Below, piece after piece: positions 12,744-37,467 of a stretch of DNA of 64,000 bases. Position numbers and translations under genes: made by a program. The notes under the pieces are model-generated. The model had not been told where the DNA came from. It did no database searches and saw only the letters and a program-made list of their open reading frames with translations. The stretch comes from Bryum argenteum (Eukaryota; Streptophyta; Bryopsida; Bryales; Bryaceae), in contig CM073321.1 in NCBI GenBank assembly GCA_037043015.1, forward strand, positions 29,315,010-29,379,009. The letters run 5' to 3'. Within the stretch, counting starts at the first letter, position 1. Every line of letters begins with the position of its first letter.

Positions 12744-13386
12744 GTGGCATCAAGTTGGGGGAAATGCCTTGCCAAAAATTGCTAAGGGCATTTTGGAATT
12801 GACATGTTCAACTTCATCATGTGAGAGGAATTGGAGCATGTACTCTTTCGTGCACAGCAAAGTGGAAATCGGTTGTCTTCTTCCTAAGCAGAGGCCCTTG
12901 TGTACATCTATGCAAACACCAAACTCGAGCGCGAGAAATGCAGACAATTGCCGAGAACGTGGTATGAAATTATTTAGAAGAAGAGGACTCTCACCAAGAA
13001 GAGGATATACGAGACAATGATGGGATGATGGTGTATTGGAGGATATCCTGGAAGTGGATGACAACAACAATCTCAATGACGGTAGCGAAAGCGATGCCCT
13101 AGAAAAATGGAATGACGACAAAGGAAACATAACTAATACTGTTAAGGACCTCTTTGAGTTTAATAACGACGAGGATGTTCCACAACAGCTTCGCCAGTTT
13201 GCGATTGCGGGCATAGACAGAGAGAGAAAAGGAGTGGCAAATTTACAGCTCCAAGAGAGTACTTGCTTAGCGAAACAAGACTTGGTAACCTGGATTGATG
13301 TAGAGAACATTGGGTCCCTTAACGGCAGCCGACAATATAACAGCGACAATAAACATGATCGTGTGAAAACACGTAATTCATTATAA
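12721..13386 (+). pseudogene. hAT transposase C-terminal dimerisation region, remnant
   Basis: The frame reads HQWWHQVGG, then IAKGILELTCSTSSCERNWS and MYSFVHSK, the typical C-terminal dimerisation segment of hAT-superfamily transposases (tryptophan pair, SSxCERNWS, a following HSK). The expected LVYIYANTKLE continuation lies in another frame, so there is a frameshift near 12880. The original frame has a TGA at 13018-13020 and then an acidic tail. No hAT catalytic region or BED finger is near, so only the 3' end of the gene is present. It abuts truncated DUF7869 copy 2, which suggests a rearrangement junction in 12430-12650. Confidence 0.75.
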
Positions 13387-13839
13387 TGGGAATATATACA
13401 CAAAATGGTAAATACGATTTACGGTAATACAATCGCACTTAGACTGCACCAAGCCAAATACATTACCAAATAATGTAAGTTTATCAATATAGAGAGAAGT
13501 ATTCTCAAAATAAAGAGCACGTTTTATCAATATAGTAGAATATTCTCAAAATAAAAAGACATAGTAATGAATATACAAACTATACTTAATCAAAAAGAAG
13601 AATTCATTCAAAATACAATCAATGATTAACACAAATTTACTAAAGGAGAAAGGTTTATTGATTGAAAAATCCAGAAAAACAAATTATTGGTGTAATTGTA
13701 GACCTCCTAAAGTAAAGCCCAGAAAAATCTACATAGTATTACGTGGACGTGCATCACCAAAAGCCTCATTTCTGTCACGCTTCCCAACAACTCGGGGATA
13801 GTCTCCTTCAAAGGATAGTCCCACACGGGCCATTGTAGT
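13387..13839. other. AT-rich gap between convergent gene remnants
   Basis: No gene seen. It separates the plus-strand hAT remnant from the 3' end of the minus-strand FCP1-like gene. Confidence 0.55.
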
Positions 13840-15390
13840 TCACAAAGGATGATTTAGGTTGACGGGAGCTAAATCGCAGGGAACACCAAGGGCCGTAGAA
13901 CGACTAGAGGTATTAGTAATCCGTGCCACGGTGCCTGTCGCCGGGATGTTCTCACGAGAAGCCGCCACAATTCGACTCGGTACACTGACGTAACTATCAA
14001 CAACATCATCATCATCATCATCCAAGACGTCTTTGGTGTAGTCCACCGCAGATGCGTCATCTCGAGCAAGATAAATGTACCGCCCTCGCTCCAACTCCGA
14101 GAGTGTCCTCGACCCCTCACTATTGTAAGAGGGATCTGACATCGTAGAGAGACCCATTGGAGGAATATCATCCACGGAGCCACTTTGTTGTCCATCGCTG
14201 AAAACCTGAGAATAATAAAAACAAACACTAAATCTTTAAAAGGCATTCTAATGGTAGACTCACAAGAACAATCGAACGTGACAATTCGCAAATCCATGAC
14301 TACAAAAGAACAGTGAGTCAAGGAAAAAGCAAAAAAACAAATTTTAACCAATACCGTAAATGAAAGTAATCACGACATGGTTCTTCCATTTAGTAGGAGC
14401 TGGTTCCACACATAGGGCAAATTCCGAGACATAATGCCGTACAACTCCGAGTCCTTGGACAAGTCATTGTGAGAGGGTCTACTAGTCATAACTCGCGTAA
14501 GTTCTCGGACCTCTCAAATGTACGGCAAAACAAAACTCGTGGATTAATTTCGGTGGATAAGAGTCGAGGGGTGGACCCGGATGTGAATGGACCCAAGGAT
14601 CGGGAAAGAGAGTGTTCGGTGGAGGAACAACCATACAAGCCGCGAGATTGCTATCGACCATAATAAAGTTCTGGGCGTTGAAATTAGCATCTCTTCTAGT
14701 CAAGAGACGTAGACGTGGATATTTGAGTAAGATAGGATTAGTCGTGCCAGGGTACATGGCCGTCGTGTAATTCTTCAACAAGAGACCATCGCAGAGTTTG
14801 AGGCCGGTATGAATCGCTGAACGGCAACGATTTTAGAGAAAAGGAAGGTGCGAGAGACCGTCCCACTACTTCAGGTTGAAGGGTACTCCAAACGTGGATG
14901 TGGCAGAAACGGTCTAACACATTGAGGAATGGGGTAAGTCCAGGACGACAGTATACTACCGTGTCAGCAACTACGGTGGGGATAGTTGACGACAGAACAG
15001 GAGGGTGTTTAGGATCAGGAAAAATAAGGTACATGGATGGGGCTTGAGACATAGGGGTAGTAGAACAAAGGACGCCGTTCAACTCCAACACCACGTTCAA
15101 CCACTTGGGCATGGAACGGTGTCCATTAACTGATGGCACACGCGGTAGGGGTTGACTGAGGGTTGTAGGAAAAGTCTTGCTTGAAGATTTGGGCAATCTA
15201 TCCTGCAGCACGACCAATGACAATAGTGGATGATATTAAAACAAGAGTGTTACCTTGTGAAATGCGGAAGCATGCAAATGACTGCTCGGAGTGATTGAGG
15301 ACCGGACCACCGCACCGACGCACAGGTCAAGGTGGTCGGTGGGGGATCTGGTGGCAAGCGGACGGAATAAGGTACTCAGAGGCGCGACCT
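13840..15390 (-). pseudogene. FCP1/NIF phosphatase-like protein with altered catalytic motif
   Basis: A leader exon ends at a CAAG/GTAACA donor near 15254, and the next exon starts after CTGCAG near 15205. The product has the order of an FCP1 homology (HAD-fold) domain: KWLNVVLELNGVLCST at the nucleophile strand, VVYCRPGLTPFLNVLD, HIHVWST, a lysine region (PILLKYPR), then FIMVDSNLAAC and NTLFPDPW. In active FCP1/SCP enzymes the first motif is DxDx(T/V); here it is E-L-N-G-V, so both acidic catalytic positions are changed. Frameshifts near 14780 and 14490 split the domain. The last exon (about 14175-13840) has a run of aspartates and ends beside a Y palindrome. It lies third in a minus-strand series with the coiled-coil and ParB-like genes. 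Substrate unknown. Confidence 0.6.
13853..13873. repeat. Y-type 21-bp palindrome at the 3' end of the FCP1-like gene
   Basis: Imperfect dyad with outer arms TTTAGGTTG and GAGCTAAA. It lies inside the last codons of the FCP1-like frame (13840 end). Confidence 0.6.
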
Positions 15391-15691
15391 GATAGAAGAA
15401 TGACGATATTTAGCGCCAAGAATGAGGGAGAACGACGCGGACGCAGTGCAGACGCAAGTGATAAATAAAAAAGTCTTCATTTTATTGAATGGGGAGTCAC
15501 TACATGGTAATATCTACAATCGTTGCACACCATCCAATAATTCGAAGACTAACTCGCAAGACCTACTCGCCGTCTTCAATGCCGGACTCCTGTAAAACAA
15601 GGAGCGCCGGCTTAAAAAATTATTACAATATGAAAAATGATACAAGCAGAGAATAATTTCAGCAGATGATCATCAACAAGATAAACAGAAA

Positions 15692-15712
15692 TTTGGGTCG
15701 ACCCGACCTAAA
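15692..15712. repeat. Y-type 21-bp palindrome overlapping a stop codon
   Basis: Outer arms TTTGGGTCG and CGACCTAAA. On the minus strand it begins at the stop codon of the coiled-coil gene (TAG, 15710-15708). Confidence 0.7.
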
Positions 15713-16604
15713 ATACATTTGCAACCATTGATAAGAAGCTTACTGTGGGATTTGTCGCAGGTACTGAGTCCAGTTCGAGATTCGCAGAGACAGTTCGATG
15801 TTCGTTGTCCGGGGAGATTGGGGCACCCAGTACCGCTCTTTCTGCATCTTCCTGCAAGTCATGACTACCCGAGGGAACCTCTTGCACGGAGGTTGCATCA
15901 ACCGAAACAGAGGTCACCAAGAGTGAGGAAGCACCATCACGAAGATCTTCATCTGTTCGTCCGTGGTCGCTAGCCTCGTAGTCCACGACGTCGTTTCGCT
16001 GGTCTGGCGTCTCGAGCGGATGAACGCCAGGGTTCTCATCTTGCTTGGCGATATCAGCTTCCGAACGAGATGCGTTACTGATGATCTCCTCAACAACAAC
16101 GTAGGGTACTGGCGTCGACAAAGCAGGAAGAATGCAGGCTGGAACTGCCGGATTCGGAGGTGTTGCGAGTTGGTGTGGCGTTTGGCTGGTGGAGGTTGAA
16201 GGCCCACAGATAGCCAAAGTAGGCTGATTGACGGGGTTGTAGGAGGCAAGGGGCTGAGCCACCTGTGCTATCTGCGTCAACAAGACCCTCAAATCACTCA
16301 AATCGCCAAAAACTCTGGAATTTGAGTTCTCCAAATTCGCAAACTTCGAGTCCACGCGCTGTTGATCCTCTCGCCTTTGCTCTTCCAACCTCGCAAGGTC
16401 TGCAAGTCTTTGCGCCTCGCGTCTTGCGTTCGCAGCTTCTTCTTCAGCTCGTTTTGCTGCCCTTCTCTCTTCCTTTTCCTTCTCACGCAGGGCACGCTTG
16501 GCATCCTTCGAGAGTGGAACGGGAATGTTCGCCTCAATCTTGACTCGCGGCGCAAGGTTCACCCTTCTCTTGCGGACCGAGACCAAGATTGATAAGAGGA
16601 TCAT
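15708..16604 (-). CDS. Coiled-coil protein of the ParB-like gene cluster
   Basis: The open frame has 298 codons. After a basic start (RKRRVN) it has a highly charged helix at about residues 30-85, rich in Arg, Glu, Ala and Lys (KEKEERRAAKRAEEEAANAR), continuing as a coiled coil to about residue 115. A Pro/Ser/Thr-rich region and an acidic C-terminal half follow. I recognise no catalytic domain. It lies 0.3 kb downstream of the ParB-like gene on the same strand and upstream of the FCP1-like gene, so it may be part of the same element. The true start is uncertain; the frame could be joined to an exon near 16890. A structural or interaction role is only a guess. Confidence 0.5.
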   Translation of the reverse strand: MILLSILVSVRKRRVNLAPRVKIEANIPVPLSKDAKRALREKEKEERRAAKRAEEEAANARREAQRLADLARLEEQRREDQQRVDSKFANLENSNSRVFGDLSDLRVLLTQIAQVAQPLASYNPVNQPTLAICGPSTSTSQTPHQLATPPNPAVPACILPALSTPVPYVVVEEIISNASRSEADIAKQDENPGVHPLETPDQRNDVVDYEASDHGRTDEDLRDGASSLLVTSVSVDATSVQEVPSGSHDLQEDAERAVLGAPISPDNEHRTVSANLELDSVPATNPTVSFLSMVANVF

Positions 16605-16911
16605 CGGCCTCCTCGCCGGGCGAGGGGGAATCCGCTCGGCCGAGAAATCAAAAATGTAGTCTCAACCTTCTCGGCAGGTCGTCGGCGCGATTATTCCAAA
16701 CCCCTTCTTCATGAAAGGGAGGTACCGTCCGCGAACAGGGGGGGAGGAGCGGCATGCGAGCACAAGAGACGGCGGAGGCGATGATGACTCTCTTGTAGGT
16801 GGCGCAGCGGGGATGGCTCTCTTGCAATCGGCTGATCCGACGAACCGGCTTGCATAGGAGCCGGGAGGAAACAACATCATCTCCCAAATTCATAGGAGAG
16901 GATCGATATTG

Positions 16912-19900
16912 TTATCCTCCTCGAGACGCCTGCAGCACTACCCTCCTCGGCACCCTCTTCTTCGGCGTTCTCTCCGTCGAACTATCCGAGTAGGCGCATC
17001 TCCGGGGCAACCTCTCTTGCCCGAGAACCACCTCCTCCTCCGATTCAGACCCGAAAACGTCATTTGCAGCCTTGGTGCGGGTCTCTCGACGATGATCTGA
17101 GTTGTCATCTTCATTGTCATCGTCGCTAAGAGTTACGGGGAGGCCCGTGGAGGCAAGTGTCTCCTCGAGGAGTGTAGGGGGATTTAGGTCGACGCGACCT
17201 AAATCCCCACCGCGGGCCAAGGATCTGCGCCGCCTGACCAATGGAATATGTTCATCAACGTCGTCATCGGGGCCAATATCTATGAGCAGGTTCCTGTAAA
17301 CAGGATCGATGCACTGAATGGGCTCAATACTCAAAGCCCGCACGCCAAAAGGCCCAGTAGATGCCCGACCGCGACCACGACCATGACCACGCCCACCACG
17401 AGCACCGGATGAAGGAGCGCCACCAGACGAGGGATTACTACCACGAGCACGGCTACCAGACGACCGATTACTACCACGAGCACGGCCAGCAGACAAAGAA
17501 CGACCACCACGAGCAACACCAGCAGACGACGGCTCGCCACCAACAGCAGACGCCGGATCGCCACCACCAGCAGAGGACGGATCACCACCACCAGCAGACG
17601 AAGGATTCCCACCACCAGCAGACGATGGTTCCCCTTGAGGGAGCCACAGTATGAGAGGATGCCTTACCACGACGAGCACGACCACCAGATGCCGATGCCT
17701 CGCCACGACCACGACGAGCAGTTCTGGTAACCCCAGCCTGAGGCGAGGACCCATGCTTCGGACCATGAACCCAATCTGGATTCACATAAGCCTCCACACA
17801 GAAGTCGTTCGGATCCAGATTGAAACTACTGTCACGGACAGCTTCGTACTTCTCCAACTCATCTTTGTCCTCGTAGACAATATGAGTTTGAAGATTAAGC
17901 ATCTGCGAAATGAAAACACAAAGTTAGTCCACAAAGAAGAGCAGAAGAGTAGATGGGAACTTGAATAAACAGACATTTAGGTGGCATCGACCTAAACCCC
18001 CAAATCAGTGTCAAGTCTGACGAACGCCAAGTAAATCAAGTGTACTTTAGATAGAGACGAATAAAATTGACAAGTAAAACGGAAGAGACTATGCGAACTT
18101 GACAAAAACAGGCATTTAGGTGGCATCGACCTAAACGCCCAAAGGAATGACAAACTTACAATTCCTGCAAGCATGGGCTTAGATCCACCCATGATCGATA
18201 GAAATCTGTTTCCTGGAGCTGTAAACATTCGCAGTACGCGAATGTAAAATTCCAAACGCAACTCGTTGTCGTTGATGCAGAAATCAAACTCCCTGTAAGC
18301 TCCTGGCTTATGATACAGGGGCAACTCCGGGGCATAGAATACCTCCGGAATTTCATCGAATACCTCCGATACCTGGGAGGTTCTCTTGAGGAGAAACAAG
18401 AGCGGAACGCGGTGTTTGTCCACGACCTTCCCCTCCAAGATACCGTTGAGACGCTCGTTGTTCGCGGGTGCGTACTGAACAGCCTTCGACTTGTACATAT
18501 CTTTGAATGCGTTGAAATATACGACGGCCTGGCAATGACGATCGGTAGTCTCCGTTATGATAAGCCAGACGTCAGGATTCTTGATGGAGGGGTCATACAC
18601 AGAATCCTTCCAAGCATTCAGAAAGTCCTTGAAGTACACATTTGAAATGTCATCCACCCTGCTACTATGGCCCGGGACGCATCTCAGGTCGATGATGCCC
18701 AACGCGCATCTTCCATCGTCCCAAGCATACCCATTATCCCAGCCAGCAAACTGAAACGCCTCAGCATCAAACATTCTTGAATGAACTTCCGGGGTTGGCA
18801 GCGAAAAATCCCCTTTCACATCCAAGAACTTCTTGAAGAACTCCGCAGCGTACTCGGAGATCTCTTCAGAACTCTTGTTCTTCGTTGTCTTCTGCCGGTA
18901 GTCGCTGAAGAACACGTCCCCGGGAACGGAAAGAAGCATCGACATGGTCTGCCGATTTACGTTGTATTCGAACTTGAAAAGCTTCCACTTTTCAACCACA
19001 AACTTGTCAGCACTGTCGAATAATCCCAGTGATGGCTTGATGTTGTGGAACTCTCTTGCAACGTATTTCTTCCTCTTGCGCTTCTCCAGCCAAACCTTTA
19101 TCGCAACGCACTCCCAGTAGTTCAGCTTCGGTTTCTTCAAGGACACCTTGGGATACAGAAGGTCCCGGTCCGGAGTCCTATTCAGAAGATGAAGCGCTAG
19201 TGTCTTGAAGTCGTGCTCTTCAAATCCAGACATCTGCGTGAAGGTATCGCGAGTCAAAACCATTTCCTTGAATTTGGACTCCCAGTCAAGATTCCGGTTA
19301 AAAGGCTCGCAAGTGTCGGGGTCTATCAACTCGCCCATCCCGACTGCAATGATAACTTCGGACCACAGCTGGTACACCTCCTCAGAAGCGGTAATGATCT
19401 CTAGTTCGTTGAGAAGGTCCGCTGGCTTCAAGAGCTTGTCCTGAGGTTTCGTGTTGATGCTCATGAAGCGTTTCACCATGGCCTCTTCAAAATCCTGAAA
19501 ACAAAAGGTCGACATCAATTCAAGAACATGACGAGATGATCATTTAGCTCGAGTCCAGCTAAACGCACGGAATTTAGGTCGAGTCTACCTAAACGCACAG
19601 AGTTTAGCTCGCATCGACCTAAACACTTGAAACTTAGGTGGCGTCGACCTAAACGCCACAAATCAAGCAAAGAAAATTATAAGAAAATGCAAGACTTACC
19701 TCATAGTTCTTTCGAGCGATAGCTTGCTCGATTGTCTCCCGACCAGACTTGGGCTTTGCACCACACTTCGCGGGCGACCCGTATTCAATCCAAACACTTC
19801 TCGCGGCCAATATGTTTGCCCACGATGCTGTGAATGTTCCCGCGTTGTTGGTCTTGTTCGCCATGATGGACACGTCCATGATCATCTTGGCGTCTGAATG

Positions 19901-21361
19901 CCAAACAACATGAGCACGCCAGGTCTTCAAGGCGGTAATCTTATCCTCGGAGATTCTGGCCTCCTTGATAAGCTCCTTCGCAGCTTCAACGTGATGCTGC
20001 CCATCGATCACACGGAAGTTGCACTTTGACTCGAGAAGTGCATTCCAGTCTCAAGTCGGAGTTGCCACAGTGATGATGGGCATGATGATGATGGTCTGCC
20101 TTGAATTCAAATCGATCGAATTCGTCAGGATATTCTTGTAATGGACAACTCCAGCAGGCTCAAGCTTTCGGACGATGAAGCGCGCATCGGCTTTCTGGAG
20201 GAGATCGATGTCCACATTGACAGGAGCCGAGTCCTTGCCAAAAACGTAACAAGGCTCACACTTCTCCCAGAAGTCCTTAAGAGTCTTGCTTGCAGCATCG
20301 TAGTCGATGTCCTTCTCGGTTGTGGCATGCCTGATGGAAGGATTCATATACGTAATCGTACTGCCTGCCAAACTACTCTTAATTCTCTTGGGCTGCTTCA
20401 CTGGCGAGGGGTTCGAGTTGCGGCGTTTCCGCGAAGGCGTAGGAGTTACCTCAATGGAGGCCATACTAGACCGCGCTGTTCCTGACCCGGTACCCTCCTC
20501 AAAAGCAGGCATCAGTGCCTTCCTTGCGGGTGCTTTGCCTTTCGCCTTGCTTTTCTCGAAGTCATTCAGAGCACTCCAGATGTGCATGCAATACTGCTGG
20601 TAGGTCTGCACAAACTTCTTCGGAGAGCTCACATTCAGAATGCCACTGACGATGTGGTCCAGGAGCCCCGCCTCCGTCTTCCCGACCATGTAACCCTTTA
20701 TAGTGTCGTGCGAGTATCGCACTTCATTCGGGGGAAAGTCGATGGTAAAGACAAATCCACGAACGTACGTCACCTTCAGCGTGATGAACAGGTGTGACTC
20801 CTCATAGTTCACCGCATAAATAAAAGTGTCGTTGCAGAATGGAAGATGGGCAGGATTAGTTCCAGACTGTTGAAACAAGTGGAAAATTCCATTCTCCTTC
20901 GGGTACAAGGACCACGACAGAATGGAATTTGGCTTAGGAGTCCACAACATGCCGTAACTCTCGACGTCCGCGACAGCAGAGGCAAGTACATCAGTGGCCT
21001 CGACAACAAGGGGCTCCAGGTATCCTTCAATAGTGCTGAGGTCAAACGGTACCTGATTTTAAAGAAGCAATGAGATGTGCGTTTAGCAGGCATCTACCTA
21101 AAAGATGTGCGTTTAGCAGGCATCTACCTAAAAGTGGTGTTTTTAGCAGGCAGTTACCAAAAAGATGTGCGCTATGATGCCATCTACCTAACATCCACTA
21201 AATATGAATTTAAAAACAAACCATCAGAATTCTAAAACAAACCATTAAAGTACAAGAAAAATTCATACCTGATTGTCAGGAGATTCATCATGACTCCCAG
21301 AAGGGATGTCCCTCTCTGCGGGAGCGGGAGCTATTGTAGCGGTCTGCTTGGTGCGAGCCAT
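16912..21361 (-). CDS. ParB plus DNA-methyltransferase-like protein with histone H3-like N-terminus
   Basis: Four coding exons fit GT-AG rules with phase kept: 21361-21269 (31 codons), 21052-19700 (451), 19494-18160 (445) and 17902-16912. The first exon encodes MARTKQTA, identical to the start of histone H3 through Ala7, then TIAPAPAERD. Residues 237-255 hold a basic nuclear signal (PSRKRR, KQPKRIK). Residues 320-400 look like a ParB/Srx-type domain: RKL, a strand TIIIMPI, then VIDGQHHVEAA at 379-388 (ParB-like proteins often have DGxHRxxA). Residues 740-950 resemble an N4/N6 DNA methyltransferase in permuted order: IIDLRCVPGH where DPPY is expected, WLIITET, MFTAPGNRFL with MGGSKPMLAG, then VYEDKDELEKY. 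Catalytic residues are poorly kept. A tail has five PSSAGGGD-type repeats and RG runs. Defects: TGA at 20053-20051 and a frameshift near 17640. Close relative at 62793-50798. Confidence 0.7.
17178..17208. repeat. Perfect 31-bp palindrome, Y type, inside coding sequence
   Basis: Arms GGGGATTTAGGTCG and CGACCTAAATCCCC flank three bases. On the minus strand it encodes GDLGRVDLNPP in the tail of the ParB-like protein. It is the most perfect Y palindrome in the window. Confidence 0.9.
17515..17640 (-). repeat. 24-bp coding repeats (PSSAGGGD) in the protein tail
   Basis: Five tandem units of about 24 bp encode E/N/D-PSSAGGG variants, followed by ARGSNPSSG-type and RGRGRGRA stretches. The frameshift that separates this frame from the start of exon 4 lies at the repeat edge, near 17640. 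Confidence 0.75.
17976..18135. repeat. Two Y-type palindromes in intron 3 of the ParB-like gene
   Basis: Sites at 17976-17996 and 18115-18135 are identical over 21 bp, with outer arms TTTAGGTGG and TCGACCTAAA. Both are inside the intron 18159-17903. Confidence 0.85.
19543..19653. repeat. Four Y-type palindromes in intron 2 of the ParB-like gene
   Basis: Sites start at 19543, 19573, 19603 and 19633, a regular 30-bp spacing. They share TTTAGGTCG or TTTAGCTCG left arms and CTAAACGCAC on the right. They occupy most of the intron 19699-19495. Confidence 0.9.
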
Positions 21362-22345
21362 GTCTGCAATGCAGCACAATAACTGTTCGTTCAGCAGGCA
21401 GCTACCTAAAAGCATAACAATATCAGGCATCTACCTAACAGCTGTGCGTTTTGGAGGCATCTACGAAAGAACTGTGCGTTTAGCAGGCAGCTACCTAAAA
21501 GATGTGCGTTTAGCACGCAGCAACCTAAAACTGGTGTTTATCAGGCACCTACCTAAAAGATGTGCGATATGAGAGCTCTACTTAACAGATGTGCGCGTCG
21601 AATGCAGCTACCAAACAGCAGTATGATAAGGCGGCAGCTACGTAAGCGGTGTGCAATTAGGGAGGAGCTAGCAAAGTGTGCGTTTAGCAGCCAACTACCT
21701 AAAAGTGTGCATTTAGGAGGGAGCTACCTAAAAGCTTTGTGTTTAGCAAGCACAAACCTAAAAGATGTGCGATAAGCAGGGAGCTATTAAATAGATATGC
21801 GATAAAAAGAAAAGTACCTAAAAGCTATGCTTTAAGGCATGTACTTAACATTATTGCTGTAGGGAAAGCTATTTACGGGCTGTGCGTTACAGAGGCAGCT
21901 ATCTTAATATTGTGCATTTACCGTGGTGCTTTATATTAGATGTTAGTTTAAAAAGCAATTGCATTAAAGTTGTGCGTTTAGCAGGCGGCTACCTAAATGC
22001 ACAGTACCTAAAAAGCCAGTACTAGAAAGCCAGTACCAGAAAGCCAGTACCTTAAAAAAGTAAGTTAAGCAGGCAGCTACCTAAAAAGTAAGTTAAGCAG
22101 GCAGCTAAGTGGTGTGCGTTAAAAAGACGGCTACCTAAAAAGTGTGCGTTTAGCAGGCAGCTACCTAAATGCTGTGCGTTTAGCTCGTGAAATTGGAGAG
22201 ACCAGTTTTTGCGACCTAAAAGATGTGCGTTTAGCTCGTGAATTAGGAAATATCTGATTTTGCGACCTAAATGCACACCCATCGACTTAAATGCACACCC
22301 ATCGACCTAAATGCACACCCATCGACCTAAATGCACAATGTTCTG
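21062..22345. repeat. Y tandem array, left copy (about 30-bp palindromic unit)
   Basis: Tandem, degenerate units of about 28-32 bp, each with a 21-bp core TTTAGCAGG ... TACCTAAA plus a linker like AGATGTGCG. The array covers intron 1 of the ParB-like gene (21268-21053) and the predicted leader intron upstream of its ATG (22559-21364). The outer end has three direct units containing TAAATGCACACCCATCGAC. On the reverse strand this end matches the start of the right array at 42150-42260 almost base for base, including TTTAGGTCGATGGGTGTGCA and a CACGAGCTAAACGCACA segment. Confidence 0.9.
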
Positions 22346-22559
22346 TAAAATCAATCGAACGGAGAGGTTGCAAAATGCAACTTCAAACTGAAATGCAGCT
22401 GCGTAACAATCAAATTGAAATGCAACTGCGTAACAATCAATTTGAAATGCAACTGCGAAAACAAATCGAAAAGAAACTGCGTTGCAAAATGCAACATCTG
22501 AAAGCAAAATGAAATGCAAAATGCAAATCGAAATGCAAGCCCGAATGCAAATTGCGTAC

Positions 22560-23105
22560 CTGAAGAGAATGGAGAGATTAGAAACAAGCAAAGCGCTGAG
22601 ACCCAGGCCGTTGATCGCAAGCAAGACCTAAAACACCAAAAGAGCTGATGCCGCAAGTAAGAACGGCGCAGCAACTACCGGAGCAGCAACGGCGCAGCAA
22701 GGCAATAGCGGCAGTAGCGGAAGCAGTAGCGGCGGCAGAGCGGAAGCAGCCAGCAAGAACAAGGGGGACGAAAGCGACGATCGATCGAAAGCGGAGAGCC
22801 AAAAACAAGCAGAGGAGCGGAGCGCAAAAAAACAATGGGCGGAGAGGAGGCTGTCGGCAGGGGTTTCGCGCGGGAGCAGTCGGCGACCTCGCCGGCTGCC
22901 CTGAACCGCGTGGCGGCTGCGGGGGTTGCCCCGCGGGTTTTTGGCGGCGCGTGCCCGCTGCCCGGGCTGCCCTGCGTGCCCGCTGCCCGTTCTTCATGGG
23001 GCAGCGCTACCCGGGGTGCCCAGGCTGCCCCGTGCTGCCCGCTGCCCTTACGGGATGGAGCACCGATGCCCGGTGTGCCCCGAATGCCCCGGAGTGCCCG
23101 CTGTT
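22560..23105 (-). promoter_or_regulatory. GC-rich promoter/leader block of the ParB-like gene
   Basis: The GC-rich block has a sharp edge to AT-rich DNA at about 23105. Read on the minus strand it starts with GGGCA-type short repeats (GGGCACTCC, GGGCATTCG, GGGCACACC), then GC-rich DNA with GCTCCGCTCCTC and many CTGCCGCT words, and ends in CTTCAG/GTACGC, a plausible donor at 22559. The matching acceptor is GCAG at 21367-21364, two bases before the ATG. The block at 41533-42003 has the same order in mirror orientation. Plus-strand open frames here are by-products of the GC content. Confidence 0.5.
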
Positions 23106-25605
23106 GAAATTTTGAGAATGTTTTTTGTTTATATTGCTATAGTTTGTGGAATTCAAGCACTCTAATTCACACTATCTAGATTCGTATGTTTTTTTTTGCA
23201 CTTTCATTATTTACAAAATGTCCACACGTATTAATTTTCTAATTCTTAGAATATTCTCTATACCACTTTAGAACAATTTTTGAGATTTATTTAACCCCAA
23301 AGAATCTAATCAAGCGGGTAGTGATCAAACCTCAATTTTGAAGGACAATCAGCAAATTATAAAAGTTACTTTTTTATTGATTTTGTAACATATTCCAAGT
23401 TTGTTAAGTTATAAACGCCATTCAATTCATAGGACTGTGATTGATTTGCTACATTTTCTGAATAAGCCTTCAATCACAAACACGACAAAGTTTTCTTACT
23501 GTAAGAATTCGACGTAAATATTATAAGTTCTCATTATTTTTTTCTATTTATTACGTTTTTATCATACAATATGTTATTTTAGTCAAGGATAACTGTTTCC
23601 AATTACCAACTAGAAAAATTATTTTCCAATGTGTTGAAATAGTCATGAGTTTTACCATTGCATAACTTTTATTTCAACCAAGAATTTTTTTTTAAGCATT
23701 TTACTTCAATAAAAAACTCATAGAGATAAATGGAACAACTTTATCGCGTTGGTTATAAATTTCTTTGCAATATGTATTAATAGGAATTTTACCACAAAGT
23801 CTAAATAATAAAATTTTGTTGTTTAGTTTAAATATGAATATGGTATGTTCTTCCAATTTATAGGACCTCAAATATTGGTCGGTCCACAAGATCTTCAATA
23901 GGACTATTACAAGTTTGTACGATTTAACTTTAAATAGCTCTCAATGGTTTTTATCTAAAACGATTACTAAGAAAATGTGCTATTTTCTTAAAAATAGCCC
24001 CGTCCGTTTAGAAGTTAAGTTCAAAATATCAATTTACAAGTCTCTATTTGATTTGCTTAAGTGTTCGGATTACCTTTCAATCATTAACACAACAAAGTTT
24101 TATTATTTTAATACTTTGTTCTATTTTACGTATATATGAATATTCGTTATTAAGTACTTCGAGTTTATTTTGATTTAATCATATATTGTTTAATTTTAGC
24201 CAATCATAACTATTTACAATACTAACTAAAATAATAACATTTCAGTTTAATTTTAAAGATTATACACATCCTAATTAACTATAAAACAAATGATACTTAA
24301 TTTACAAACATTGTTCGGATACATACATTTCAAAATTTTCGTTTACTATACAGTTTTAAAAACGATATTTGAAGATAATTATGTTGTTCATATTGTATAA
24401 ACATCTAGGTTTTTCTTTTAACTTCTCAACTTTTAAGAATATTAAAACATCCTCAGTTCATATAAATTATTACATATAATTGCTTTATTCGTTTGATTTT
24501 GCCAAAATTGTATCATTCCTATATAGTCATTATTAGCTCGAATTCAACTTGTTTAACTGTTATTAATATATTTGTAACTACACGTCTACTGTAGTTCTAT
24601 CTTTAATATTTTAATTCTTTGCTATAAAATAAAGAACATAAATGAAATTATATAAAAAAAAATGTACAAAAATAACACTTTCATTCGATTTTTTAGTATA
24701 TTTTGAATGTTTGAACGGTTATTACATTTACATTCTACTTTTTCATTCCTGCCTTATTTATTATTGTTTGTTATATAAATTGCAATCATAACATTACATA
24801 CAGATGCGATTATGACAATAATATTTCTTTGCATTTCAACAATTTTCTTTATTTTCTTCTAATAATAATCATAAAATCATACTTATCCAGTCAAATAATG
24901 GAATTTTTCTCATCGTTTCTTTAATCTATGTTTACATTATTTTTTAATATTTTAATCATTTTGAAGAGTATTAATCAGAAAACACCGTATACATGTAATA
25001 CTGATATAATTATTTATATTACATTCTATAATTTATACACGCTAATTTTCGGTTTAACCAAAAATTATAATTTTTGTTAGTTTTTAATAACCTATTCAAC
25101 TTGTTTTATTGACATTTGTATCAAATTATTATTATTTTTAGATAAATAGTATAAAATAGTTTATTTGTTTCATAAAAGTATGGATATTTAATTTTACAAT
25201 TTTCTAAGATACTAGCTAATTAAATTTAATTGCAAAATTCATCAACATTAAATAAATATAGAATATATTTGCAAGCATTTACAATTAAATTAAGTTTCAA
25301 ATCAAAAAAATTCCGTTAAATTACATTTCTCCTTTTTCTTAACATGCTTTATTGATTTTTTTTCCATTTTTTAAACCTCGGTGTATATCAAACATGAAAC
25401 GGTGAATATCATATTTGTAACAGTATATATCAAATAAGCAACAGTGTATATCAATTGAGCAACAGTGTATATCAATTGAGCAACAGTGTATATCAAACAA
25501 AAACGTTGTGTAAGTAATGACACTTCACAATTTAAAATTAAAAACGAAACAAAATTCTTTATCTTTCGTATGTATCAGAACTGAAATTCGCTTAAGGTCG
25601 CCAAA
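23106..25605. other. AT-rich spacer without a gene
   Basis: Very AT-rich with many homopolymer runs; no coding signal. At 25414-25495 there are four units of a 21-bp repeat containing CAACAGTGTATATCAATTGA. Its right end reads AGGTCGCCAAA directly against the Ty3 LTR. Confidence 0.6.
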
Positions 25606-26196
25606 TGTTAAGGGGGTTTTTCTGAAACCATACCCTAACGAGTCTAAGTTAATTTCCTACTAGTCACAATAACGTCGGGTTATCAAAACTGTGACTAGCA
25701 AGAAGGGAAGGGAGTTTACTCTACCGACTAGTGAGTATCTAGAGGGACCAGACAGCTTTAGGTCGGGTCTGCTAAACACTAGAGAGAGAGAAAACACACG
25801 ATTCTCACAAAAGCAGATCGTAGATCCTGCAAACAAAAGTCGGCTAGTCTATTCAAACACACACAACGGAAGAACAGAATAGAAGACTATGCAGAACTCC
25901 GAGGTTACTGGCAAAGAGGGATAGATTAACTAGCAACAACCCTCACGGAGAAGAGGGTGGTACATATAGTCGGTGGGGTCCGACTGATCGTCCGATCCAA
26001 ACAGAACAACAGTCGGCCGACCACCGCCAGTTGGCCGAAAAGGTCGGGTGTCCAAAATGAGTCTAAGACTCTAAAAACAACAACTAGAGATCCGACCTGC
26101 TAACCCTACCGGGTATCGCCTGCCGGATCTATACCTGCCGGGTAGAGACTAGACTAAAAATAGCCTAGCGAATATACTACGAATATTCCGTTAACA
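25606..26196 (-). repeat. 3' LTR of the 12.5-kb Ty3 element
   Basis: 591 bp, starting TGTTAAGGGGG and ending CCGTTAACA. It matches 37470-38062 with scattered substitutions. Confidence 0.9.
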
Positions 26197-27860
26197 GTGC
26201 CCCCCCTTTAAGCCAAGTACACCCCTGTGGACTTGTAGCCTAAACCGGTGGGCGATCGGTAGAGGTCGGGCCGTAGAGTGACCGACTAAACGTCGATGGG
26301 GCCTCCGCATGGGTTGGAGATGTTGAAGGTTGGGCTGTCCATCGATGTAAGGTCGGTGCGGGCCTTCTGTGCGGTCGTCGTTGGTGATGATGGCGGAGCC
26401 TTCAGGAATGCTGAGTGCGTCGCTGGATGAAGTGGAGCCCGGTTCAAAACTGTCGACTCCTGCAGCGGAAGGACAACAAAGAGAAGGGGAACGTGGGAGG
26501 TCAGCTGTCGGGTGCCAAGGCTCGACCACGGGAGAAGTCAGCGGTGATGTCGGGTACGAGGGTCGCTTCCTCTGGGCCTCCGGTTCGTCTAATGGAGGTG
26601 GTGTCTGGAGGTCGACTGTCTGGAAGTCGAGCGAAGTAGTGCGGCTTGGAGGTGATGACTCCGCCCATGCACCGGTGGTGGTCAAACGGAAGGAGGGAAA
26701 ATCCTCTTCCGTGAACTTCGGGCGCCCAAGTCGTGGTGGCTCGGGGGTCGACCACTGCCTCTCTAGGTCGGCTAGCATAGTCGTCATTTCGGTGAGGGTA
26801 GGCAATGGAACCTCGAGGTTGCTGCGAAGTCCAATCCGTGTGGCTTGAGCAGCCGGTGCCGGTGTGTCGGATGCGTGGTGCTGCTGGTCGGGACCTGTGC
26901 TGGGTGGCTGCTCGTCTTTGCCCGACTGGTCGGGTACCTGGTCCGGCTGGTTGTCGTCTTGAGCCCTGTCGGGCTGCTCTTGTTGTCCACCCGTGTTATG
27001 GCCGTCATCTTTATCCTTGTCCTCCCGTGGCTGAGTGTGAGGGGTCTGTGTGTCGTCACCCGACGTCGGGCTGTCGGGTGGTGTGACCTGTCCCTCGGAC
27101 AGGTATTCATCACTGTCAGTCGGCAAATTCTCCAACAGCCGGGGGTCGGGTGCTTCCTCGTCCTCCTCGTCCTCGTCTAAGTTTGGAATGACGATCTCCG
27201 GGTAGGCCTTCTGGATTGCGTCGAGCTGCCGACCGTACCGGGTCGATTGGCGATTCTGGATGTCGAGTGTGTGTTGCAAGTCTTTTATCCGAGCCCGCAG
27301 CTGAATGCGAAGAGCATGCTTGGACCTGCGCACCCGAGCCAACATTCGGTCGCGTCGAGCCGATTTGGTTACCAGCTGGTTTGTACGGTCGATATGCCTC
27401 TGTAGTCTCGTCATGGCGGTTCGGGCGCGCTTATCTGCATTGAGGAACTCCCCCTTCAGAACAATATGCTCGTTTCGCAAGGTCGTGTAGTCATGGTCGA
27501 CCTGCTGTTTTTGTGTCCTACTCTCGTCCAGCAGGGCCGCGTTGGTCTGGTTCGTCGCAACCAATCGCTGGTTGGCCTCTAAAGTCTCCTGTAGCCGGCG
27601 CTGAGGTCGAGCACTTGCTCGCGGGTTTCCCATGAATCGCTTGGTAGTCGGGTCGATCTGCGAGCGAAGGTCGACAAGGTCGGGCGGAGAGACGCCGCCG
27701 TTCTAGCCGGGTGTTGTCGAGCTCGAGTTGCATGCTCGTCGGTCGCGTCGGCGTCTCCGGAGGTACAGGGGAGAGGTCGACCTCATAAGCCTCGGCCGCT
27801 GCTAGGGTCATGCGTCGGAGTGCTTCAATGCTTTGTCTCTCAAGCTGCGACATTGGTGGC
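26191..27860 (-). CDS. Second extra frame of the Ty3 element, coiled-coil protein
   Basis: The open part 27633-26191 has 480 codons. Upstream, a segment starting MSQLERQSIEALRRM (27855) joins it after a one-base frameshift near 27705. The first ~130 residues after GNPRASARPQ are a long charged helix with regular Leu/Ile spacing (coiled coil), rich in Arg and Gln. Then come an acidic patch (DEDEEDEEAPD) and a long Pro/Ser/Thr/Asp-rich region. No membrane segment or fusion peptide is visible, so an envelope-like role is not supported. Its position after integrase and before the 3' LTR is typical of extra genes in large plant Ty3 elements. The stop overlaps the LTR edge. Confidence 0.6.
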
Positions 27861-29141
27861 GTCATCGACCTCGTGGGGTCCAATCGACAAGGGTTGGTCG
27901 TACGTCGGCCGAGGGGAAAGAGGAGGGGGTGATCGGAAGGTCTGTTCCCGGGTGTCGACACGCTGTGAACTGATTTCCATCGGGGCCGTGACGCCTCCTG
28001 GAGATTGCAAAGGTGTAGGCAAGGCCGACGTACCATGAGGTTTCTGGGGTGTCGGCACGGTATCGCTGTCGCATGGGGTGAACGGAAGCTCATCGTCCGA
28101 GAAGTCCGTTGTGAGTAGTGCCCGATACTTCCTAGTCTGGCCGAATGTGTCCTTAGGGCCGCGTCCTTTCTTCTTCGCCGGTGTCGATCGAGTCTCCATT
28201 CTCCGGGGGGTCGGCTCATCCAACGCATGACGACGGCGACTCCTGCGCGTTGAAGGTTGCCCAGACGGAGGATCGGATAGGGTCGATAGGTCGACAACTT
28301 CTGCTGCGGTGCTAGGTTCTTCTGCCTCGCGTAAAACATTTGGGTCGACTGCCTCCTGTCGGGTGCTGTCGGGTGGCTGGGAGGTCGATGCCTTCTGTGT
28401 GGCAGGGTCGACCTGTTTGGGTTGGGTGTCGAGATCGACTCCCAAGCCGCCGTTCGCTCGTAAGTAATTGGGGCCCGTGAAATTGTTGTCGACATTCTCC
28501 TGCATACGTCGGCGGTCTGCGGTCTGCTGTTCAGCGTCGGTTCGCGGTGTCGCGCCATCTTCGGTGGAAGAGAAGAAGGCCTCTAAGACCTTGTCGAGTA
28601 CCTCGGCTGACGGACACTGGAGAGTGTTCGTGCGCTGGATAGCCATGACATCGACGATGAGCGATTCCAAAGACTCCATCGAGCCTGATCCCCACGACCC
28701 GTCGCCGGAAGCTGCTAGGGTCTCGACAATAGCATAGACCGCAAACGACTCATTGCTGACGTACGTTGTTCTGCGTTTGAAAGTGAGGCCTAGGACCATA
28801 CCTTTTAGCCGGGGTTGAAAACGCGGGTGGCACTTGGAGATGATGTATCCCTCGTCCGACTTCGCCTCTGGAACTCGGTAGGCCCGCAGCAAGTTCTGGT
28901 AGTCCTCGGGCTGGTCGTCCTCGACCAGGGGCTCCAGTGTCGACCCGGTCGGTACCTTCAGTACCATCTGAATCACTTCGACGTCGATTCGGACGAACCG
29001 ACCCCGAACTCGTGCCGTCATGCCTGTCTTCCCATGGATGTCGGCTGCATTCACAAATTCCTCTATCAACTCCATGCGCGGGGCGGACATCGGGTTCGCC
29101 CAGTTCAGCGATAGGTAGGGCGGCGAAGCCGAGGTGGTCAC
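27840..29141 (-). CDS. First extra frame of the Ty3 element, unknown protein
   Basis: An uninterrupted 433-codon frame starts MTTSASPPYLSLNWANP. Residues 20-180 look globular, with FVNAADIHG, VRGRFVRIDVEVIQMVLKVP and SNESFAVYAIVETLA; the rest is Pro/Ser/Asp/Arg-rich and probably disordered, with KKKGRGPKD as a basic patch. The globular part recalls the plant-transposon-associated domains that often accompany large Ty3 elements, but I cannot name a function. It ends where the next frame begins. It lies about 1 kb downstream of the integrase frame; the spacer 29142-30201 may hold an internal promoter. Confidence 0.6.
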   Translation of the reverse strand: MTTSASPPYLSLNWANPMSAPRMELIEEFVNAADIHGKTGMTARVRGRFVRIDVEVIQMVLKVPTGSTLEPLVEDDQPEDYQNLLRAYRVPEAKSDEGYIISKCHPRFQPRLKGMVLGLTFKRRTTYVSNESFAVYAIVETLAASGDGSWGSGSMESLESLIVDVMAIQRTNTLQCPSAEVLDKVLEAFFSSTEDGATPRTDAEQQTADRRRMQENVDNNFTGPNYLRANGGLGVDLDTQPKQVDPATQKASTSQPPDSTRQEAVDPNVLREAEEPSTAAEVVDLSTLSDPPSGQPSTRRSRRRHALDEPTPRRMETRSTPAKKKGRGPKDTFGQTRKYRALLTTDFSDDELPFTPCDSDTVPTPQKPHGTSALPTPLQSPGGVTAPMEISSQRVDTREQTFRSPPPLSPRPTYDQPLSIGPHEVDDATNVAA

Positions 29142-30201
29142 GTCACGGTCAAGCTCGGCCTCGCTCGTTCTCGTAGAATCGTCGCCACTCCACCAACTTC
29201 TTCATGCGGACGTACGACAAGACCTTATACCGCCATCGTGTGTATGGACCGGTTCGGGCTGGTTCTCTGGTCGGAGCTGGCGGTTCACGCGCCGTCGGTG
29301 AGTCGCCGACTTCCCTTTCGGCATTTTGAGGTTGGTAGTCGCGGGGCCTGTGGGCGGAAGCAAAAAACAGGAAAAAAGATTCGGCTGGATTACCGAAATG
29401 AGATGGCTGTCGGCGCTACATACGTCGGTTTCGGATGGCCGGATGTCTTTCTGCGTCCGACCCGAGGAGGCGACGCTGGCCGCCGATAGGGTTTCAAAAC
29501 CCTTCTTTGGCGTCGCAGAATCGCTGCTACTTGCTGCTGATCGCGGCCGCCGGGACGGTATCGTCTGGTGCTCCCAACCCCGCCGTCCGCTAAGTCTTTG
29601 CGCTGTAAACCCCTAACCGTGGGCTGCCGGCCGAAGTGTGTCGATGCAGCGTGAGACGAACGCGCCGGCCCACATGATGTTGGCGCTGCTTCTACCTTCT
29701 CCTGCCGCTGCCGTAAGTCGGTCGTACGCCCGCCGCGCCAAACGGAGAGTCTTCGTTCTACCGACCTCCGCGCGCCTCGGCCGCCGAAAGTCGGATGCGC
29801 CAAAACCCTTCTTCTGCCGCGTCACTCGTCCGCTCTGCTCCGACCGACACTCGTGCAAAATCGCCGGGAGTCGCCGCCTTCTACCCCGTCGCCGTACAAA
29901 CCATGCTGCCGCCGACCGCAATTGCTGGAAAACGGTCGCCCAACCTCGCTTTACGTGGCGAAAACAAACATGATCACGCACTCCCAAGTCGCAAATCGCT
30001 GCTAGCGCCGCGGTCGCTGGCCAAAGCGAGGGCAAGGAGGGTGAAAAAGAGGGTGGGTTAGGGTTTTCCATGGGCCTATACCGCGGAGGGGTTGGTGGAG
30101 ATTTATTCAAACTAGGAGTTGTAGCCGCAATCGCGGCTACTAAATGGACGATCGGCGCTTCGGAGGTAGTCGATCGAAGTAATGTGGCGATTCATTGCGA
30201 C
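29142..30201. other. GC-rich spacer between integrase and the extra genes
   Basis: Several overlapping open frames occur on both strands, but they look like consequences of GC content (Arg- and Ala-rich, no domain). It could carry a promoter or splice acceptor for the extra genes; no specific site was assigned. Confidence 0.45.
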
Positions 30202-33200
30202 CTAATCGCCACCAACAACGCGTTGACTTTTGGTCGGCCGTGGTCGAGTGTCGGGTGTCGGGTTAGGAGTCAATATCGCGGAGAACGCTTTTGATGAATG
30301 TCGAGGGGTCGACCCGAGTTGTCGGGTCGTGTAGCGTCGATGAGGGCGGCAGTGCAGTCGAGTGCCCGGAAGCTCGTCTTCATTACGTATCACCATGTTC
30401 TTGACATCGGACTTGCTAAGTGACGGCTTCAGAACATCCGCCGGTAGTAGATCTTCTGAAATTCGGTACGGTTTGAGCTTACCGACATTGACTACTACCG
30501 GGTCGGGGTCGAAATGTTGGATACTAACCAGGAGGACAGTATTGTTCGGTAGAACATATTGTATCCGGTAGGGTCCGAACCACTTGCCACGTAGTTTGCC
30601 TGCATGTAGGTTAGCGCCTTTAGGGTACCACAGGACATAGTCGCCCACATTATACTGCTGTGTCGGGCCTTGTGTCGGGGCCCATTGGGCCCTGTTCCAC
30701 TGCGTGGCTCCGTGATGGAGTGCAGCAGTGTGTCGGGTTTCGTCCAGCTTCTCCAGGTCGGCTACTCGAGCAGTGAGAACACGCTTGGGGTGGAGATCTA
30801 AGGGTCCTGATCATAATGTCGGTATGACATATTTGGTCGACATCAGAGGTGTTAGTCCATAGACTAACTGGAAAGGAGAGTGGCTCACCGCTCACCGCTC
30901 AACGCTCACACGGTAGCAACGTCCCTGTATGCAAACAGGACTGTATGTAGCTGGACATCCCAGTCGGTTCGGTTGTGGACGACTAACTTCTGCAGCATAC
31001 GGACGATCACTTTGTTGGTCAACTCTGCCTGTTCGTTTCCTTGAGGGTGGTATGTCGTGGACGTTGTATGATGCAGCAGAAAATGGTCGGTCAGTGTCTG
31101 GATCGCCTTGTTAATGAAGTGGCTGCCTTGATCGCTTACCAGCTGCAATGGGCAGCCAAATCTCGTCAAGATCGCCTCGTACAGGAACTTGTCGGTCTCT
31201 TTGGCAGTGTTGCCACGTAGTGCGCGAGCTTCGACCCACTTGGTGGCATAGTCGGTTGCCACTAGGATGTACCGACACCCAGTTTGTCGGGTCTTGACTA
31301 CTGGTCCAATGAAATCGAGTCCCCACTTCATGAAAGGTTCGGCGGGAAGCTGCGTTACCAGTTTCGTGGATACCGACTTCGGCAGACCACCCGACATTTG
31401 GCAGTCGTAACACGACTGGCAATACCGGACAGTGTCCTGGTATAGGGTCGGCCACCAGTAACCTGCATCCAAAATTTTTCTCACCGTGATGTCGTGTGAA
31501 AAGTGACCTCCAGCGTTGCCCTTGTGTAACTCTTGCAGAATAGTTGTCGGCTGGGTGCCGGTCAAAACCTGGCGGGGTCTGCCGTCCTTACCGTGTCGGT
31601 AGAGTCGCCCCTGTATAAGATGAAACGGGATGGCTTTGTGAGCCAACCGTTTCCGCGCTTCGGTCGACATGGTGGTCGGAAACGTACCCGACTGGTGGTA
31701 GTCGACTATCGGTTGAAACCAATCGGGGTCGACTTTGAACAAGTGCGCGACATTGGGCTGGTCGGGAATGCCGACTGCCGGTTCAGCGCCCTCATTTCGT
31801 GATGTGTCTTACCCGGTTTATATACAACCGTGAAGTCGAACTCCAGGAACAGGAGTAACCATCGGGCGAGTCGCCCCGACACCTGCGGCTTGTTCACCAA
31901 GTACTGCAAAGCTAAATGGTCGACATAGAACACAAATTTATTACCGAGCAAATAGTGTCGGTACTTGTTAATGGCGTAAACCATGGCGAGAGCCTCTTTC
32001 TCTGTTGTCGTATAGTTCTTCTCCGCTTTGTTCAGTAGTCGCGAAGCGTAGGCAATGGGCTGGTCGACCTTGCCGGTCGGGTTTTGTGCCAGCACTGCCC
32101 CAACAGCTATGTCGGATGCGTCGGTGTGGATATGGAACTCCAACGACCAGTCGACTCCGATCAGAATGGGTGCCGACGTGTACTTGGACTTGATAGCCTG
32201 GAAGGCTGCCTCGCACTGGGTCGACCAGATGAACGGTTCGTTCTTCCGAGTCAGTCGTGTGATGGGTTCCATGATCGCTGCATAGTTTTTTATGAAACAA
32301 CGATTGAAGACTGCTAGGCCGTTGAACTCCTGGATAGCCTTCACAGTGGTGGGTGTCGGCATGTCGAGTATTGCTTGGATCTTTTTAGGATCCGGGAACT
32401 TGCCTTCCTTTCCGACTATGTACCCTAGGATGACACCTGTCGGTACCATGAAAATGCATTTTTCAGGGTTTAAACTGACCCTGTACTGCCGACATTTGTC
32501 AAAGACCAGTATGAGTTTTGGTAGGTGTGTCGCCATGTCGCTGTAAACACTGAAGTCGTCCAAAAACAGCTTCATGAAGTCGCCCAGGTACTCCTTGAAG
32601 ATCTGGTTGACAATGCGCTGATAGGTCGGGGGAGCATTCTTTAGTCCAAACGGCATGACAACCTGCATATACGCGCCCCACTCGGTAATGAATGCCGTCT
32701 TAGGTCGGTCGGCCGGATGGATCCGACCTGGTGGTATCCTCAAAAACAAATCCGAGGAATGAGTATGTTTCATACCCGATGACCGTGTCGAGTACCTCAT
32801 CCGTGAAGGGTAGTGGGTACGGGTCCTTCTTAGTGGCGACATTGAGTCGACGAAAAGTCGGCACGAATCTGCGCAGACTTGCCGTTCTTCTTCGGCACCA
32901 CAACGATAGGTGATAGCCAGGATGCCTGGTCAACCGGTTCGATAAACCCTGCAGTTAACAGTCGCTCCAGGTCATCTTTGACCGCCTGTGCATAATTGGG
33001 ATTCATGCGTTACCGGGCCTGGTGGCTAGGCGACATGGTCGGGTCGAGTTCGATTCGATGTGTCACTATGTGCTCCGGAATGCCTCGTAAGTCTTTGTAC
33101 GAGAAGGCGAAGATGTCAACGTATTCTATGAACAAGGACTCCGCCCCCTGCCTGATTTCTGGGCTCAGGTTGGCATTCAACTTTAGCAGTTTCGGGTCGG

Positions 33201-34205
33201 TAGGGGTACCGACGTTGACCAGATCGAGTCGATCGTCTTCGTTGTGGTTCCAGTGGACAATGTCCATGTACTGGAGCTACTGCTGGATGGGTGTCTCATC
33301 GAGCGGCATCTCTCCTGGCGTATGGGGAATGTCGACATGTGGAGGTCGGGTCATCTCTGGCTCCATGGGCGGGCCTGTGGTGTCGTCTATAGGGTCGATC
33401 TGAGTCGAAAGGCACCGGTCGACCGAATCGCTACCCGCAGTGAGGCTCGTGGTTGTATTCTTTGGGTCGACATGCGATCGAAGTGGGGTCGACCGTTTTT
33501 TAGTCGGTATGCGGGAGAGTCGGTCGCCAGGAGATTCCAAATGATGGTACCCGATAGGTGAAGGTTGGGGTCGGATGCCGTGGTATGGCTTCTTCCTCAT
33601 CTCGTTAAGCCTTCAACGAAATTATAACATACGAGGGCGTGTGGTGTAACCGCCTCACTTTAATTCTCGATTGATTTTGATGATCCTAATCGTGCCATTC
33701 CCATGATCTGCACTTCATTATTACCCCAATTATGGATTACCTTAGCATGCCGGAGCCAGGGTCGACCCAGCAGCAACCGGTAGTCCGATTTGACTGTCGA
33801 GCAGTCCAGCACCACCATTGTGACTACGTAAGGTATGCCATGGATGTGGATCCTGACATCCCGTAGTAGCCCTTTAGGGCGGGCTAAGGTGCCGTTTGCC
33901 ATCTTCAAATTGAAGGGGGCCGGAGACGGTTTTGGAAGGCCTAACCTTCGACGCTCCTCCTCGGTGATCACATTGACCCCAGAGCCTCCATCGATAAGGG
34001 CGTCGTCGACCACGTTCTTACCGACCGACACTGATATTACCGGCATGTGTCGATCGACCGTCTCTACAGCGGCTATGACGACTGTTTCAGGTAGAGGGTC
34101 GACCGTAGGGGGTAGGTCGGGTGACGCCGATTGGTATAGTCGACTCCGGACTAGGGCCGTGAGTGCCGGTGAGAGTTGAAAAAGCTCTCTTAGGGACACC
34201 TGCAA
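30202..34205 (-). pseudogene. pol: pol of the Ty3 element: protease, RT, RNase H, integrase
   Basis: Protease (34205-33660): ALIDGGSGVNVI and LLLGRPWL, with catalytic D-G-G in place of the common D-S/T-G. Reverse transcriptase (about 33270-32250): a TAG at 33277-33279, a stop near 33010 and a frameshift near 32840 break it, but QVVMPFGLKNAPPTYQR and the catalytic LFLDDFSVY are present. RNase H: FHIHTDASDIAVGAVLAQ. Integrase (31742-30906): zinc-binding H/C residues (HKGNAGGH, CQSCYDC), then GLDFIGPV, LVSDQGSHF and NEQAEL for the DDE triad. The integrase C-terminal beta domain (GDYVLWYPKG, GPYRI) is in the frame 30648-30202, after a shift near 30900. No chromodomain follows. Reverse transcription and integration of the element; no longer translatable as one polyprotein here. 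Confidence 0.85.
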
Positions 34206-37455: not shown

Positions 37456-37467
37456 CATAGGTCGCCA
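37456..37467 (-). promoter_or_regulatory. Primer-binding site of the Ty3 element
   Basis: On the minus strand the 5' LTR ends at 37470 and is followed by TT and TGGCGACCTATG. TGG at this place is expected from pairing with the CCA end of a tRNA. The tRNA is not initiator Met; I cannot name it with confidence. Confidence 0.6.

Follow-up and report, generated by a model that had tools for sequence, protein, structure and literature searches.

An H3-like N-terminus encoded by a transposon gene

The 64,000-nucleotide (nt) stretch of Bryum argenteum DNA analyzed here, referred to as the window (GenBank assembly GCA_037043015.1, contig CM073321.1, positions 29,315,010 to 29,379,009), contains a DNA transposon that measures 20,645 bp once a nested Gypsy element is removed. 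The element carries terminal inverted repeats (TIRs), a DUF7869 gene and a large second gene, here called gene 1, whose first exon encodes a histone H3-like start (Table 1). Exon 1 of gene 1 is translated to MARTKQTATIAPAPAERDIPSGSHDESPDNQ. Residues 2-8 of this product, which would be numbered 1-7 after the predicted loss of the initiator methionine, read ARTKQTA and are identical to residues 1-7 of H3. The exon ends at a donor GT at 21268 and joins position 21052, behind an AG, in phase 0; the H3-like start and its in-phase splicing, both proposed in a first-pass annotation of this DNA, are thus confirmed by translation. Exon 2 stays in phase with exon 1 for 451 codons but is interrupted by a TGA in frame at 20053-20051. 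Together with a frameshift near 17640 in exon 4 (read by eye), this stop identifies the window copy as a decayed family member. Ala or Pro at position 2 favors or permits removal of the initiator methionine, and the consensus forms of both transposon subfamilies described below have one or the other there.

Copies across the genome

The genome searched comprises 258.8 Mb in 25 contigs, with the window located in the contig designated C1. The degenerate pattern M[AP]RTKQTA yielded 110 matches, compared with 0 for the reversed-pattern control and 0.03 expected at equal base use, which excludes chance for the H3-like start and bears out the initial view that a seven-residue match is hardly accidental. 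Among the 100 matches listed, 12 are H3 genes (found independently, the coincidence being matched by hand) and 88 have the codons of one of two transposon subfamilies, A and D, while the other 10 were counted only. Subtracting the 12 H3 genes from the 110 matches leaves about 98 transposon copies with an H3-like start.

Subfamily A, which includes the window copy, was surveyed with the 21-base sequence ATGGCTCGCACCAAGCAGACC (up to 2 mismatches), giving 55 genome matches. Three of these sit in an H3 gene cluster on contig C2, and the sequence of one of the three was examined (L048, MARTKQTARKSTGGKAPRK). The remaining 52, made up of the window copy and 51 further loci, were read without exception and all proved to be copies of exon 1. 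MARTKQTA is encoded at 42 of the 51 loci and a one-residue variant at the remaining 9. Exon 2 follows exon 1 in 20/20 copies fetched at length, and 19 of these, all but L017, have an exon 3 match.

The exon-2 protein has at least 123 matches in the genome. The DNA upstream was read for 20 diverged matches, 12 of them belonging to subfamily D (47-52% exon-2 identity) and 8 being intermediates (64-88% identity). A first exon of the ATGCCGAGAACCAAACAAACTGCCAGAATT type, encoding MPRTKQTARI, precedes 11 of the 12 subfamily D matches (not L069) and is damaged or changed in 4 of these 11 (L063, deletion; L064, K4N; L071, A7V; L072, R2G and R8K). Searching with a 36-mer of this start (up to 3 mismatches) found 70 subfamily D copies. 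It should be noted that 12 of the 49 listed D starts have an exon-2 match among the matches listed, most D starts being known as matched bases alone. The exon layout of subfamily D resembles that of subfamily A, and the majority codons for RTKQTA differ between the two at 5 of 18 bases without any amino-acid change. Contig C1 (44.1 Mb, 17% of the genome) carries 42/52 A copies and 45/70 D copies (the latter counted by hand); one guess is that it is a sex chromosome or a poorly recombining chromosome.

The first-pass interpretation is supported in part, in that the H3-like start is part of a protein encoded by the transposon and recurs in roughly 98 copies. The anatomy, copy number, TIRs, target site duplications and motif arrays of the element are direct observations. 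TIRs with 4-bp target duplications were found in 7/7 elements examined, the six others having the same TIRs (one end with one change) and the duplications TATA, AAAA, GTCG, TAGT, TTTA and TTAA. Allowing 2 mismatches at most, the genome has 867 TIR-like matches (control, 0). No fewer than 29/52 A starts and at least 24/70 D starts have a divergent DUF7869 match 3-26 kb upstream; a different DUF7869 arrangement within 26 kb occurs at 2 A and 3 D starts. The DUF7869 protein is the probable transposase of the element; the term DUF7869 was not found in the literature searched. In the window copy, the next open reading frame (ORF), 45096-45908, is in another frame, and the DUF7869 gene therefore looks broken.

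A likely donor of a 5' untranslated region (5'UTR) exon, TTCAG/GTAC (TTCAGGTAC), is located 1.0-1.3 kb before the ATG in 10 of 21 upstream regions, and the 300 nt preceding this donor are free of ATG in 9 of the 10 copies that have it, including the window. Because this upstream exon lacks an ATG, the ATG of MARTKQTA is likely the first AUG of gene 1. We find it scarcely credible that the gene model is wrong, with the ATG not being the translation start or the exon being skipped. The exact upstream donor string is indeed absent in 11 of the 21 copies, but an AG is found 2 nt before the ATG at 49/51 loci and a donor GT at the end of exon 1 at 48/51, and the ATG-free upstream exon, the codon-level selection contrast described below and the similar exon layout of the diverged subfamily D likewise speak for the model.

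Age and conservation of the H3-like start

The age of the exact start was assessed on 100 exon-2 matches whose first residue is 1 or 2. Starts counted as near-exact were those of subfamily A with no more than 2 mismatches and the exact D starts listed. Such a start is found just upstream of exon 2 in 34/36 matches at 90% identity or above, 6/16 at 80-89%, 3/22 at 60-79% and at least 12/26 below 60%, the last figure being too low as D starts beyond contig C8 are absent from the list. The exact H3-like form is thus mainly found in close A copies and in D, not in the copies between them.

Starts could be read in 14 intermediates, namely 7 of the 8 in the first set (one lacks exon 1) and 7 of 8 further ones fetched. 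Their types are ARTKMTATI (82-88% identity, one at 69%), ARIKSTARI (73-79%), ARTRTTARI (64-70%) and ARSRIITRI (65-66%). R2 is present in 11/14, position 4 is K or R and position 5 is the most variable. In a tree of 29 rows, the exact A form (100/99) nests inside the ARTKMTATI group (94/89), so that subfamily A probably regained Q5 from M5 instead of having kept it, in agreement with selection for identity to H3.

Variation among copies points in the same direction. Counting variants that recur in at least two of the 52 A copies, codons 2-7 have 4 silent and 0 amino-acid changes, compared with 6 silent and 14 amino-acid changes in codons 9-31 (47 copies without indels; p = 0.02). In codons 3-8 of subfamily D, shared variants are 5 silent and 2 amino-acid changes and singletons, which include post-insertion decay, 0 and 12 (p = 0.002). 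Pooling the A and D cores gives silent to amino-acid ratios of 9:2 for shared and 5:15 for single variants (p = 0.007), whereas the A tail has no such contrast (6:14 shared, 6:12 single; p = 1). These are signs that the H3-like N-terminal residues are kept at the amino-acid level.

In the H3-like stretch, subfamily A and a host H3 gene differ at only 2/23 nt, which would suit passive capture of a functionless piece of a host H3 gene. However, outside the 8 codons L048, the one gene read out of 12 H3 genes, matches the window at 19/60 nt upstream and 8/36 nt downstream, the level of chance; moreover, the shared core changes are mostly silent, and relatives show these codons changing stepwise within the homologous exon. 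We regard such capture as very unlikely. A more serious alternative, possible but in our view the lesser prospect, is that the start acts as a short motif, x-R-x-[KR]-x-T-A-R-I-V, with some other partner (for example in nuclear import, in contacting DNA or in binding a protein of the element), the H3 identity in two subfamilies being coincidental. When the lineages are taken together, conservation is indeed best at R2, T6-A7 and the I-V/I behind them, while T3, K4 and Q5 vary. Against coincidence stand the match of both exact-core subfamilies to H3 R2-A7 at equal distance from the N-terminus, the change from M5 to Q5 suggested by the tree, which added H3 identity, and the consensus Ala or Pro that permits methionine removal.

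Predicted fold and palindromic motifs

A ParB N-domain fold is predicted for exon-2 residues 280-411 of the gene 1 homologue P0012. GERR is the CTP-binding motif of ParB-type clamps, and aligned homologues have DGQHH at its position. The methyltransferase half of the first-pass label, ParB/methyltransferase-like, could not be confirmed, as no Pfam family, methyltransferases included, reaches threshold in exon 3. The VANC domains DUF1985 and DUF287 likewise gave no Pfam match in exons 2-3 or in the scanned pieces of later exons.

The element contains 26 sites of the palindromic motif TTTAG-N11-CTAAA, with 1 in the nested Gypsy element and 0 in the 30.9 kb of the window outside. The spacer is 11 bases at every site although 9-12 were permitted, and block shuffles average 0.21 sites. 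Apart from the groups in Table 1, one motif is found within exon 4 (17183-17203), showing that it can occur in coding sequence, and two near the element ends. Many belong to tandem arrays with a period of about 30 bp. The common form in subfamily D is TTTAGCTCGA[CG]TCGAGCTAAA, and exact TTTAGSTCGANTCGASCTAAA sites number 5,923 genome-wide. In some homologues from other organisms, translation past the end of exon 3 gives LARVEL or SSSRA, which at the protein level would agree with this motif lying there too.

Comparison with known systems and proposed function

Histone mimicry (SNAG, PAF15) and transposon anti-silencing (VANC) are already known. In the section of PMC5735166 drawn on here, VANC motifs are repeated in the introns of their own transposon and upstream of its transposase gene. 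In layout, the present element resembles VANDAL/VANC of Arabidopsis: one DNA transposon combines a probable transposase gene with a separate large protein, and short motifs that vary between subfamilies are repeated within introns and ahead of the transposase gene. Unlike VANDAL/VANC, it has DUF7869, a predicted ParB-like fold, an H3-tail-like N-terminus and a merely putative anti-silencing role. The SNAG ends of SNAI1 and GFI1 are free N-terminal peptides, as is predicted here, and their Pro2 is followed by Arg, as in subfamily D, which shares the Pro at position 2. These H3-like ends block LSD1, and Pro2 is needed (P2A), as given in the excerpt of PMC5896174 used. SNAG recruits LSD1 to repress host genes, whereas here a transposon protein matches H3 residue by residue. 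PAF15 and DPPA3 (both VRT) bind the UHRF1 PHD finger as H3-like ligands and share x-R-T with H3 ART, a route to interfere with DNA-methylation maintenance, according to the relevant part of PMC11187062; they are cellular animal proteins with a three-residue H3 match. Finally, the predicted fold and the palindromic motifs recall the bacterial CTP-dependent clamps ParB, Noc and KorB. Those have GERR, where the homologues show DGQHH, and a helix-turn-helix, which was not found here; CTP and site binding would be conjectural. Searches on H3 mimics and transposons, in which subscription journals were largely uncovered, found no transposon-encoded H3-tail mimic.

Based on LSD1 binding by SNAG, the UHRF1 PHD ligands and the placement of VANC motifs, we propose, with a probability of about 0.5, that a DNA-bound, ParB-like mimic of the H3 tail protects the element from silencing. 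Methionine removal, motif binding, partner identity and anti-silencing, that is, all steps beyond conservation, are what we infer. The 20-kb TIR transposon would encode a large DNA-clamp-like protein divergently from its DUF7869 transposase. Methionine removal would expose an N-terminus that mimics H3 over its initial 6-8 residues, A/P-R-T-K-Q-T-A(-R). The encoded protein may bind the 21-bp palindromic motifs in element introns and promoters, through or together with the ParB/Noc-like domain, and would then hold an H3K4-like tail without Lys9 at the element. This tail could occupy readers or erasers of unmodified or K4-methylated H3 (LSD1-type demethylases, UHRF1/VIM-type PHD fingers) or, alternatively, attract H3K4 writers, with the outcome that the element stays transcribed. 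If true, a transposon would escape silencing by displaying, on its own DNA, an H3 tail that lacks K9, and a bacterial chromosome-segregation fold would be working in eukaryotic chromatin. A stronger version, in which the ParB-like clamp loads at the palindromes, spreads and displays a dense array of H3 tails with Lys4 and without Lys9, forming decoy chromatin, seems doubtful to us. If it holds, the host could mark the element active but could not silence it via H3K9.

Several points weigh against the proposed anti-silencing mimic. Related lineages deviate from H3 at T3, K4 or Q5 (ARIKSTARI, ARTRTTARI, ARSRIITRI), some with open exon-2 frames. The H3-like start given in the first-pass annotation recurs in A and D, but L073 and L074, both with open exon-2 frames, start with ARTRTTARI or AGIKSTARI and have no exact match, so that K4 and T3 are not kept everywhere. 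Adding the edge codons (A 1 and 8, D 2) to the selection contrast, which counts variants and not independent events in copies chosen by core closeness, changes it to 9:5 shared and 5:18 single (p = 0.015), and to p = 0.08 for shared 9:5 against the A tail 6:14. As many motifs sit in tandem arrays, the 26 sites are not independent. The ParB-like fold comes from one model with a mean pLDDT of 52 (about 70-80 across most of the domain), poor after residue 411, of a homologue from another organism, and the fold comparison came from going through the Foldseek ranking a second time. No DNA-binding domain was identified, with no helix-turn-helix family among the matches.

The same anatomy would also serve a mimic that targets or tethers the transposition machinery or an element protein to chromatin via H3-tail readers, and the concentration of subfamily A on C1 is in keeping with such targeting. 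Weak purging on C1 could explain the clustering equally well, however, and most of the motifs are found in introns and promoters of the element itself, fitting self-action. We consider targeting in place of anti-silencing unlikely.

Annotated features and further observations

Table 1 Features of the transposon and its surroundings in the window.
Feature	Position	Strand	Evidence or remark
Target site duplication TGAA, left	13364..13367		Flanks TIR
Whole DNA transposon	13368..46480		Identical 28-bp TIRs, 4-bp target duplication TGAA
TIR AACACGTAATTCATTATAATGGGAATAT, gene 1 side	13368..13395	-	Identical at both element ends
Possible later gene 1 exon, charged, Arg/Glu-rich	15711..16661	-	Open frame; joining to gene 1 putative
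Gene 1 exon 4, Gly/Arg/Ser-rich repeats	16911..17902 (3' end approximate)	-	By eye
Five motifs, introns 2 and 3	17976..19623		
Gene 1 exon 3, conserved domain	18160..19494	-	Open frame; 8 homologues
Gene 1 exon 2; ParB/Noc-like domain corresponds to 3' part	19700..21052	-	Translation, homologues, predicted fold
Motif array, intron 1 and upstream of gene 1, 9 exact sites	21082..22169		
Gene 1 coding exon 1, MARTKQTA H3-like start	21269..21361	-	Translation, copy comparison
Predicted 5'UTR exon, gene 1	22560..22860 (start approximate)	-	Donor CAG/GTACGC
Nested Gypsy LTR (long terminal repeat) retrotransposon, foreign to element	25595..38062	-	LTRs 93.9% identical; RT/RNaseH and gag domains
Motif array upstream of DUF7869 gene, 9 exact sites	42229..43231		
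DUF7869 (PF25273), probable transposase ORF	43702..45198	+	E 1.1e-42
TIR, transposase side	46453..46480	+	Identical to gene 1 side TIR
Target site duplication TGAA, right	46481..46484		Flanks TIR

Inside the element, ORF 14741-15235 (minus strand) weakly resembles NIF/FCP1-type phosphatases (E 0.0013, short of the cut-off) and is possibly a further gene of the transposon. A DUF7869 fragment at 7297-7800 (plus strand, E 2.5e-31) is located outside the element and bears only a distant resemblance to the DUF7869 sequence at 43.7 kb. The direct repeats 51115-52409 and 57728-59020 are 99.4% identical, flank RT/integrase and gag ORFs and probably mark a young LTR retrotransposon.

Elsewhere in the genome, further histone-like genes were noted. 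L081 (C6:1762400-1765400) is a CENH3-like gene (pieces of 49% and 59% identity) whose preceding DNA, MARRKSTPRHGRN by eye, is not an ARTKQTA start. L082 (C7:3013900-3014900) and L083 (C6:8411500-8412500) have open frames that match the H3 core at 84-87% identity across 87-89 residues, with other sequence replacing the H3 tail.
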